The position numbers and the translations under genes were made by a program. Shown piece by piece: positions 17,458 to 55,178 of a stretch of DNA of 64,000 nt. Within the stretch, counting starts at the first letter, position 1, and every line of letters starts with the position of its first letter. The stretch spans positions 1-64,000 of the forward strand of contig NZ_WOTH01000007.1 in assembly GCF_011516945.1 (NCBI RefSeq). Reading direction: 5' to 3'. Under the pieces are notes generated by a model. The model saw only the letters and a program-made list of their open reading frames with translations, had not been told where the DNA came from and searched no databases. The DNA comes from Acetobacter estunensis. Lineage in GTDB: Bacteria; Pseudomonadota; Alphaproteobacteria; Acetobacterales; Acetobacteraceae.

Positions 17458-17702
17458 GGGGCCGGTCTCCTGCTGGGGTGAAACGTGGGCGCACCATGAC
17501 GCAATCGCAGGGGCCAGTGCAATGCCGCTGACATGAGGCGTTGCACGGGCTGATGGGAGAGTGTCGTCTTGCGTTGCCTGAAACGGCTGGCGGATCTTGC
17601 CAATCTGGACCGTGAGGCTGTCCCGATGGATCTGGATTACAGGGTGTGGATTTTGCTCGCTCATTTTGAGAGGCGGCGGACATGACGCAAACGGTGGAGA
17701 GA

Positions 17703-17734
17703 CTGGCCGAACGGCTAAAGCGCCGATCGGCCAG
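17703..17734 (-). terminator. Hairpin downstream of the porin gene
   Basis: CTGGCCG and CGGCCAG are perfect 7-bp arms about 55 bases beyond the porin stop. No T tract follows, so it may act with Rho or be a processing site. The remainder of 17458-17787 holds no convincing gene. Confidence 0.4.
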
Positions 17735-17787
17735 TGAAGTGATAGGGGCGAGTTAGAAACCGGCCCTATTCTCGGATTGCGCTGCTT

Positions 17788-52006: not shown

Positions 52007-52735
52007 GTGACGGTCGATACGTCTGATCTGACGCCGGGCAAGGTGAAACCACCTGCCCGGCGTTTGTATGGTCGTCAGCGCGGTCATCCACTGCGTCCGC
52101 GCCAGCAGCGTCTGATGGATGAGACGTTGCCGCGTCTGCGTCTGTCGGAGCAAGCCGCTTCCGATCCCTTGTCGGCGTTTGGTCGCCGACCCGAGCAACT
52201 CTGGCTGGAAGTCGGCTTTGGGGGAGGCGAGCATGTTCTGGCGCAGATCGAGGCGCATCCCGAGGTAGGATACATCGCCTCGGAAGTGTTTGAGAACGGC
52301 CTGTGTTCGCTTCTCTCGCGTCTGGTTCCCGAGGATGAGGAAGCAACAGCCCCGGTGCCGCCGCTGCTGCGTATCTGGGATGAGGATGCGCGGCTGCTTT
52401 TAGAGAAGCTGCCGGAAGCCTCGCTGGATCGTATATTTCTGATGTTTCCCGACCCATGGCCGAAAGCGCGTCATGCCAAACGACGCTTCGTGCATCCGGG
52501 GAATCTTCCGCTTGTGGCGCGTGCGCTCAAACCGGGAGCGCAGTGGCGGATAGCCAGCGACGATCCAACTTATCAGGCATGGGTCACTGAGGTGATGACC
52601 GCTCAGCCGTTTTTCGTGGCTGGTGAGCCCAGCATGGAACGGCCAGGGGGGTGGCCCGGAACGCGGTATGAAGCCAAAGCGCTCAAAGCGGGTCGTCAGC
52701 CGTTTTACTGGACATTTATAAGAAAACCTAACTGA
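52007..52735 (+). CDS. trmB: tRNA (guanine-N7)-methyltransferase
   Basis: A 242-residue SAM-dependent methyltransferase acting on G46 of tRNA. It starts at GTG. LWLEVGFGGGEHVLAQIEAHP is the SAM-binding motif I, LDRIFLMFPDPWPKARHAKRRFVHP the PDPWPK signature of TrmB. The proximity to metK (cofactor supply) is common in Alphaproteobacteria. Its last 31 bases overlap the convergent broken hydrolase gene. Confidence 0.96.
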   Translation: MTVDTSDLTPGKVKPPARRLYGRQRGHPLRPRQQRLMDETLPRLRLSEQAASDPLSAFGRRPEQLWLEVGFGGGEHVLAQIEAHPEVGYIASEVFENGLCSLLSRLVPEDEEATAPVPPLLRIWDEDARLLLEKLPEASLDRIFLMFPDPWPKARHAKRRFVHPGNLPLVARALKPGAQWRIASDDPTYQAWVTEVMTAQPFFVAGEPSMERPGGWPGTRYEAKALKAGRQPFYWTFIRKPN

Positions 52736-54162
52736 GGGTTGTGTGCAGACAGGCAGGGCGCCATCTCTTCAGGATAAGAGAGAGTGTCCTGCACAGGAGT
52801 ATGTGCCTGTATTTGCACTGGAATAAGAGCAAAAGCTTCCCATTGCAGACAATTTGGTGAATCCATAACGACAACATGATCGGGATGTGCGCACAGATTG
52901 CCTTGTCTGGTCTGCACAGACAGAAAAGAATCACTCGTGTCGGAAATGGTGCGGAGTAACTGTCTGTTCTGAAAGGATGTAAAGGCCAAATTGGCTGCAT
53001 CTTCCGGGTTGTTTGTGAGGCGTAGTCCGGAATCTGTTTCCGCGAAATAGAAGAGAATTCCATATCTTTCGATACACAAGAGATATCGGTCCGTGGAGGT
53101 GTCACACAACACGGGTATGGCTGCGTTATCTGCAATGATCAGGGATTGGCAGAGAAATCCTTTCTGTTCCGGGGCGTAAGCCAGAATGGTTCCATGCCAC
53201 GTAATGATTCGGGGCAGTTTTCCCGGTGAGGTGAAGGGAAAAATATATCCAGAAGGTTGATGTTCTCCTGTCAGATGCCGGTTGATAAGATTGGTTAGAA
53301 GATCGAACGCATTTGTCCAGTATCGATAACGGCAAAGAGCCGCGATGACACGTATTATCAAAGGTTCGTCTTCAATGACCGCACGAGAAAGTTCATCGTT
53401 TTGGCATAGACATCTCTGTAGAATCTGGCTGCAGAGAAGGGGATGAGACGCATATCCACTTTCCAGACGGCATTGAATGTTACGACTGTTATGGCGACGC
53501 GCCCGCGAAAGTACGGCTGGCACGCGCCTTGTGGAATCTTCGCTTCGTAAGGCATCCACGAGTGCCTTTATATTGGCTGAGCCACGAATGTGGTCGAAAA
53601 TCAAATGCCCAGTGTAAAATGTTGGAACAAGTTGGGATTCTGGGACGATTTCAGCAATCTTGTGGGCATGAATATTGTCGATGTGGTCTCCTGGATCATA
53701 GGGAATGAAGATTTTACCTTGGACTTGTGAAGCCCGGAGGCCCATGCCTTCCATGCCGGGGCGTAAATTGTTGTCCACATAATGCTGCGGGATCTCGATT
53801 TCTGCGGGATCAAGAGACCATTTGGGAACAGCAGCGAGTACAGCGTCTGCGTTCAGACGACGTGAAAACGCCAGAGCGGCGTAAGCGCCCATGGAAAAAC
53901 CGATCAGAATGATCTGTCAGTAAGGGCGACTGAGCGTGGTGATGAGTGAGAGGACATACTCGGTATCGGACGACAAATACCAATGATCGACTTTGCTGGT
54001 AACACCGATGGCACTGATATTGTTTTTCTGGAAAGGATGTTCGGCAAAGAAAGTCTGGGTCGCGATATGAGTGCGATGCGCGCCCTGAAAGGTAATGACA
54101 ACATAATCTGTCGTACCGTTGGCATGATGGACGACCAGTTCTTCGCCTTCATACACGATCAT
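52705..54162 (-). pseudogene. Alpha/beta-hydrolase-like gene interrupted by one in-frame TGA
   Basis: An ATG at 54162 (after GAGG) opens 81 codons that stop at TGA (53919-53917). The same frame then continues without further stops for about 400 codons to 52705. Across the stop the sequence reads ...TTLSRPY-stop-QIILIGFSMGAYAAL, so the stop sits just before the nucleophile elbow GFSMG, with no base gained or lost. The intact product would be about 485 residues: an N-terminal alpha/beta-hydrolase fold (GFSMG, later DPGDHID and HL) and a long C-terminal part of unknown kind. The gene is more A+T-rich than its neighbours, suggesting transfer. A TGG or CGA to TGA change is the simplest cause. A 395-codon remainder could start at the ATG at 53892 but would lack the fold's beginning. 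Confidence 0.72.
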
Positions 54163-54365: not shown

Positions 54366-55085
54366 TCAGCGCGCTTCCGCCGACGCTGCGGATGGAATGA
54401 AGTCATAACCCGGCGAACCCGGTGGTGGTCCGGGTGGAGGGACATCATCGGCAGCCAGAGAGGACAACTGTGCCGCGCTTGGGCCAACCTGATGGGCGTA
54501 GATGGAGGTTCCGAATTCACCTGTGGAGCCGGGGCCTGCTGCAAAGATCGTTGTTCCCGGCCGAAGCTGTGGCAACAGACGGGTGGCGGCACGGCTGGGC
54601 ATCTGCACGACCGTCCGATCTTTGAGAATGACACCAGCGGGCACGCCGTGAACATCGTAGAGCGTTTGCGCCACGATCCCGTGAACCATAATGTCCGGCC
54701 CCGTGACCATTTCGGGCGCATGCTGCGGCATGGTGATGCCTGTGTCTTCCGCCCGCTTGCCACGCGGACCTGCGAGCGTATAGGCGCGGATCAGCGGAAG
54801 CTGGCGACCTTTCAGGCCGGTGCCGGTCAGACGCTCGCCCGGTTTGACGATTTTGGAGACATCCCACGCCAGATCGGGTGAGACCAACACTTCCGTGCCA
54901 TCGGTGAACAGCACGCCACTGACGCCGCCTGCCGGGGAGGGAAGATATTGCGCAACCGTTCCGCTGAAAGAGGGCAGCATGGACACATCATAGACCGAGA
55001 CGGTCGGTGGCGAGCCTGCGGCGAAAGCTGGGGTGATCGTAGCCGTACCGAAGGCTACGACTGCAAGACGAAGAAACTGACGCAT
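54366..55085 (-). CDS. Hypothetical exported protein
   Basis: A 239-residue protein with a signal peptide ([20 protein letters not shown]). The mature part has two similar beta-rich halves ([21 protein letters not shown] and [22 protein letters not shown]), each preceded by a stretch with GTV/GIV. This suggests an internal duplication of an OB-like or SH3-like unit. The last 30 residues are proline-rich ([14 protein letters not shown]). The ATG at 55085 begins the signal peptide directly. A terminator follows. No family was recognised. Confidence 0.75.
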
Positions 55086-55149
55086 GACCGATCCATCATT
55101 GGCTACGCCCATCTGGAGGGGGAATAGCGGGCAGAATACGCAAGTGTGT

Positions 55150-55178
55150 CCCGACAACGCCACGAGTGGCGCGTCGGG
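55150..55178 (-). terminator. Strong hairpin downstream of purH
   Basis: CCCGAC-AA-CGCCAC pairs with GTGGCG-C-GTCGGG around a two-base loop, giving a 12-bp interrupted stem about 20 bases beyond the purH stop. No T tract follows, so it may act as a Rho-aided or stabilising 3' hairpin. Confidence 0.55.

Follow-up and report, generated by a model that had tools for sequence, protein, structure and literature searches.

A single in-frame TGA, probably a recent nonsense allele, in an accessory alpha/beta-hydrolase-like gene of an Acetobacter genome

Introduction

What does a single stop codon mean when it interrupts a reading frame that is otherwise open? This question is raised by a gene in the stretch of 64,000 nucleotides analysed here (referred to as the window), which corresponds to contig C7 of a 3.45 Mb draft genome of 120 contigs. 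The original prediction described a large alpha/beta-hydrolase gene split by one TGA just before the catalytic serine, for which a nonsense change, a sequencing error or recoding were considered, with two separate genes as a further alternative. The titles and abstract openings listed for publications on pseudogenes and nonsense mutation in Acetobacter, on read-through of UGA and on the genomes of A. estunensis do not name the gene.

Results

The stop codon and the frame around it

The frame on the reverse strand (Table 1) has exactly one internal stop, the TGA at codon 82, and is otherwise open over its 485 codons, as had been claimed; each of the other five frames of the 52705..54162 stretch has 12 to 22 stops. 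The TGA is eight codons upstream of Ser90, the presumed nucleophile, in agreement with its predicted position just ahead of the catalytic serine, and no further stop is found in the 403 codons past it. The join between TTLSRPY and QIILIGFSMG across the stop is continuous, as predicted, and this continuity is not a matter of chance, because an intact, colinear homologue of 485 amino acids exists in A. estunensis. The G+C fraction is about 0.47–0.51 across the hydrolase gene versus 0.59–0.65 over the flanking genes (500-base windows), such that the gene is indeed more A+T-rich than its surroundings. A Pfam search of both gene pieces gives no match at E ≤ 1. A promoter-like match that overlaps the start codon is no commoner than in shuffled sequences and has been set aside. 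At its 3' end, the hydrolase gene overlaps the 3' end of its convergent neighbour (52007–52735, forward strand) by 31 bases (52705–52735).

Table 1. Features of the interrupted gene, with their positions in the window
Feature	Coordinates	Strand	Remarks
Broken alpha/beta-hydrolase-like gene	52705..54162	-	485 codons + stop; one in-frame TGA; intact colinear homologue in L031
In-frame TGA, codon 82	53917..53919	-	Arg codon in A. estunensis AV380
N-terminal piece, residues 1–81	53920..54162	-	Terminates ahead of Ser90
Ser90 of GFSMG, presumed nucleophile	53893..53895	-	Ser in 38/39 aligned rows
395-aa ORF after the stop	52705..53892	-	ATG is Met91; restarted product would lack Ser90
Asp156, presumed triad acid	53695..53697	-	39/39 rows
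His186, presumed triad base	53605..53607	-	39/39 rows
TPR/PPR-like helical stretch, ~residues 265–297	53272..53370	-	Mapped by eye on the family profile consensus
Tail, residues 451–485 + stop	52705..52812	-	Absent from most aligned homologues

The sister gene and the residue at codon 82

Among named relatives, the closest one found is Acetobacter estunensis AV380 (the sister), whose DNA is 95.2% and 95.7% identical to the window in two blocks that span most of it. At window positions 17525–17784, the sister contig has about 3.4 kb extra, with ORFs of 857 and 199 amino acids that are absent from the window. In the same place as the window gene, and flanked by the same neighbours, the sister has one intact frame of 485 codons, which is 93% identical and aligns without gaps. 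Its codon 82 encodes Arg and differs from TGA by one transition. Among 38 aligned homologues, including the sister, the residue at this site is Arg (16), Lys (6), Ser (4), Gly (3), Glu (2), Asp (2) or, in one homologue each, Asn, Ala and Pro, with a gap in the other two; Arg or Lys is thus found in 22 of 38, and Trp and Cys are found in none. Trp or Arg had been expected here, and it is Arg that occurs in the sister and is commonest among the homologues; a one-base nonsense change or an error is therefore favoured. When compared with its intact homologues, the window gene carries a disabling change, as is characteristic of a pseudogene.

The aligned rows are stop-free frames spanning the codon-82 site, for which 38 of the 51 matching loci were kept. 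The 13 dropped loci are the window itself (L001), the duplicate L032 (the same sister sequence as L031, reached twice and counted once) and 11 that are partial, broken or overlapping (L015, L029, L035, L041, L044, L045, L047, L048, L049, L050 and L051). Such a choice of rows cannot by itself exclude homologues with a stop at this site, for which the genome searches and three loci have been used. Besides the window, these searches, in which stops are read through, list matches with stops in L015 (a single TAA), in L041 (four) and in two fragments of genome G085. The stops of L015 and L041 are located elsewhere than at the codon-82 site, and the G085 fragments match residues 189–277 and 2–71, leaving this site uncovered.

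The same frames bear on the proposal that the locus consists of two separate genes, the second beginning at the internal ATG, where a mechanically called ORF of 395 amino acids starts (position 53892). This start is Met91, however, which is inside the nucleophile elbow, and 38 homologous frames, in rows selected to span the site, run through codon 82. The dropped frames that begin past the site are the second piece of the window gene, L035 and one L044 frame, both of which lie at the start of a contig, L045, which is some 105 bases away from a contig end, and, in L069, one frame of the frame-shifted copy; no complete homologue that begins at the internal Met is seen among the matching loci. 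The arrangement as two genes is opposed by these observations and is scarcely credible.

Substitutions on the two sides of the stop

When compared with the sister gene, residues 1–81 have 8 synonymous and 2 nonsynonymous differences, residues 83–210 have 18 and 0, and residues 211–485 have 31 and 30. The C-terminal half evolves faster than the hydrolase-like part, and the last 35 residues are the fastest-evolving (dN/dS of about 0.76 on 11 changes). As judged from these counts, the hydrolase-like part past the stop has been under strong purifying selection in both lineages for nearly the whole time since their split. About 28–34 amino-acid changes would be expected in residues 83–210 on the window branch if it had been unconstrained throughout. 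The unconstrained share of this branch is at most about 0.09–0.11 at 95%, an estimate that presumes equal branches and a constraint that ends with the stop; with 18 synonymous and no amino-acid changes in these residues, an inactivating stop can therefore account for only about a tenth of the branch. The 31 amino-acid differences are assigned to the window (3), to the sister (1) or to neither (27), most of them not being assigned because the outgroup, at 46%, is too distant. A base-call error, or functional read-through, would equally leave the residues past the stop without amino-acid changes.

The main rival reading, possible but rather unlikely, is that the draft assembly has a base-call or consensus error at the TGA and that the gene is intact. 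Only one substitution in a draft of 120 contigs would be involved, and the frame has no other decay and is strongly conserved past the stop, in agreement with such an error. On the other hand, the genome is scored as 100% complete with 0.19% contamination, and substitution errors would be rare if the consensus is deep. Also, no other clear broken gene is found among 60 sister ORFs, a few of which are doubtful, the comparison being limited to ORFs of at least 100 amino acids. Besides the hydrolase, eight of these 60 ORFs have a stop in the window: four differ mostly at codon position 1, as shadow frames would, one is interrupted close to its beginning (residue 11), one is uncounted (unequal lengths) and two are short (140 and 147 amino acids) and ambiguous. 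The pairs win24 (misaligned) and sis6 (unequal lengths) were left out of the codon-position counts.

Decoding of the TGA

The conserved frame downstream of the TGA would also be understood if the codon were decoded, by recoding or by physiological read-through, with some full-length protein still being made. The base following the TGA is a C, and UGA-C is a weakly terminating context. Nevertheless, the sister has a sense codon at this site, and the other stops in the family (L015, L041 and the two G085 fragments) are at other places. The machinery found in the genome does not point to recoding either. RF2 is present (520.6 bits versus a cut-off of 370), and the best match to SelB reaches 179 bits versus a cut-off of 242.25, over profile positions 2–264 of 581. 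The best match to tRNA-Sec reaches 44.6 bits versus a gathering score of 47; all 11 candidate places for this tRNA also match the general tRNA family, and the three best are read by ARAGORN as tRNA-Ser, tRNA-Ser and tRNA-Leu. No UCA anticodon is read by ARAGORN among all 41 tRNA matches found, a list that is incomplete, because it has no tRNA-Ile. The 67 nucleotides past the stop fold no better than shuffled sequences (z of -0.56). A selenoprotein was rejected, with SelB and tRNA-Sec below their cut-offs and Cys at the site in none of the 38 homologues. The recoding option thus finds no support in the checks of RF2, SelB, tRNA-Sec, anticodons and folding, and decoding of the TGA is very unlikely. 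Even more doubtful is the variant in which the TGA is tolerated via near-cognate read-through at a useful rate in the UGA-C context, such that small amounts of the full-length enzyme arise and the downstream part stays under selection.

Distribution, broken copies and neighbourhoods

The hydrolase gene is dispensable and patchy in its distribution: matches (E ≤ 0.001) are found in 13 of the 49 genus genomes and in 63 of the 200 family genomes, its own genome being included in both, and other copies are broken too. Many of the 63 family-level matches cover the N-terminal part only. The copy in L041 has several stops. In genome G231, residues 1–106 and 102–450 are split between two contigs, both parts lying some 105 bases from a contig end, which may reflect an insertion or a mere assembly gap. 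The copy in L015 (genome G180, of another genus of the family) has its single TAA in an otherwise open frame, at a position where L016 and L017 have Glu. L069 (genome G215) has two tandem copies, the first being spread over several reading frames and the second, which runs to the contig end, not being counted as broken.

The genes that flank the hydrolase in the window have no match among the 18 other loci, and no common neighbourhood is found among these loci, except for groups of two or three that have common neighbours. The copy in L064 is followed by a glycosyltransferase gene and an O-antigen-ligase-like gene, and the same neighbour clusters occur in L065 and L070; glycosyltransferases are also found near the relatives in two Sinorhizobium records and in a Loktanella record. 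The ten scanned neighbours also include a FemAB-like protein and a lytic transglycosylase, but unrelated genes are present as well, for example uvrB and those for a globin, a symporter and a histidine kinase; two of the ten are without a match. A role of this hydrolase family in surface polysaccharide is taken as a lead only.

The neighbouring gene of 265 amino acids has a match in all 49 genus genomes, and among the 30 of these 49 loci that were examined, the hydrolase adjoins it only in the window and in the sister. The gene that flanks the spot opposite to it codes for a tRNA methyltransferase, which we take to be trmB, and is found within the flank in 11 of the remaining 28 loci, with a spacing between the neighbour matches of 170 to 688 bases in nine loci and of 1147 and 1233 bases in two; in the other 17 it is not within the 1.5 kb flank. 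The spot between these two neighbours may be a small variable insertion site, and the low G+C together with these neighbour arrangements suggests that the hydrolase is a small acquired gene at this spot. In the 1147-base case (L156, another Acetobacter), a different ORF of 270 amino acids is present between the same two neighbours (bases 891–1703). For the gene at 54366–55163 of the window, the mechanical start is probably too early: in 42 of the 49 matches, the aligned part starts no earlier than residue 18. An internal TGA is counted in five matches, as would be expected of sequence that precedes the true start.

Conserved residues and fold

The G-x-S-x-G nucleophile elbow is present in nearly all aligned rows (G88 in 39/39, S90 in 38/39, G92 in 38/39), and an acid and a His, D156 and H186, follow the nucleophile in all 39, with presumed triad roles. 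Past this region, the original prediction of a C-terminal part without a recognised family holds, the C-terminal half having no clear Pfam family. Among 33 aligned members, the only Pfam matches are weak ones to hydrolase and TPR models, and no TPR model matches more than four of them. A profile search of the PDB finds helical repeats of a generic kind, esterases (E 0.006 and above) and, weakly, designed beta-trefoils; the matches to designed PPR/TPR proteins sum sub-threshold repeats and show only a generic helical hairpin. A C-terminal beta-trefoil was rejected, the designed-protein matches being weak (E 0.018 and worse) and not recovered with a profile of the C-terminal part only. Single-sequence searches of the PDB and searches of PHROGs give nothing, and among phage records there are two distant matches, both in Acinetobacter phage MD-2021a. 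A structure model obtained from two sequences, the sister and the window protein, has a mean pLDDT of 30.9.

Discussion

The stop is most probably due to a nonsense mutation that arose recently in an accessory hydrolase-like gene, of which the sister has an intact copy. Among the options raised originally, a nonsense change or an error is favoured, and recoding is left without support. A single transition would have converted the Arg codon at position 82 of a protein of 485 residues into TGA, and the peptide released by RF2 would be 81 residues long. Translation could restart at Met91 at the earliest, just past the presumed nucleophile; the conserved Ser90, Asp156 and His186 are all encoded downstream of the stop. 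As this restart lies after Ser90, neither piece alone should be a working hydrolase. That the base is real, that the change went in this direction and that there is no useful read-through is what we infer, from a comparison of one genome per species in which the base of codon 82 is taken from the assembly alone.

The intact protein would consist of an alpha/beta-hydrolase-like part (residues ~1–210), a helical stretch resembling TPRs and a C-terminal end without a family name, and it is a putative Ser hydrolase or acyl transferase, possibly acting on surface polysaccharide. Taken by itself, the stop codon is of little consequence, as an ordinary and probably fresh case of a nonsense allele in an acetic acid bacterium, in a gene that is accessory. 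Of broader interest is the protein family, which occurs across the bacterial family, with relatives in other alphaproteobacteria, and in which a copy has been broken on more than one occasion; it keeps the hydrolase-like Ser, Asp and His, and its C-terminal half clearly belongs to no Pfam family that we could name.

When this family is compared with known proteins, the Sinorhizobium megaplasmid proteins annotated as 'hypothetical protein' have, among the matches listed, 27–31% identity over residues 1–260 or 1–211. These are from another lineage and context, and their coding sequences, of 954 and 978 bases in two records, are without a matching C-terminal half. A weak local match of about 40 residues around the nucleophile is found with Asp2 of the accessory Sec system (PF16929, E 0.0055 in Pfam; TIGR03712, E 0.0025 in NCBIfam), and membership was rejected at 17 versus 210.75 bits for TIGR03712 and 16.3 versus 28 for Pfam, the likeness being that of the elbow only. 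The matches to Hydrolase_4 (6 of 33 aligned members) and Abhydrolase_6 (5 of 33) of Pfam are also weak; the intact sister protein scores 17.2 bits with Abhydrolase_6, below the curated cut-off of 26.3, and it is therefore called hydrolase-like and not filed under this family. With the alpha/beta-hydrolase superfamily as a whole, the family described here has in common the G-F-S-M-G elbow, followed as expected by the conserved Asp and then the His, and it differs by its long C-terminal half with a TPR-like stretch.
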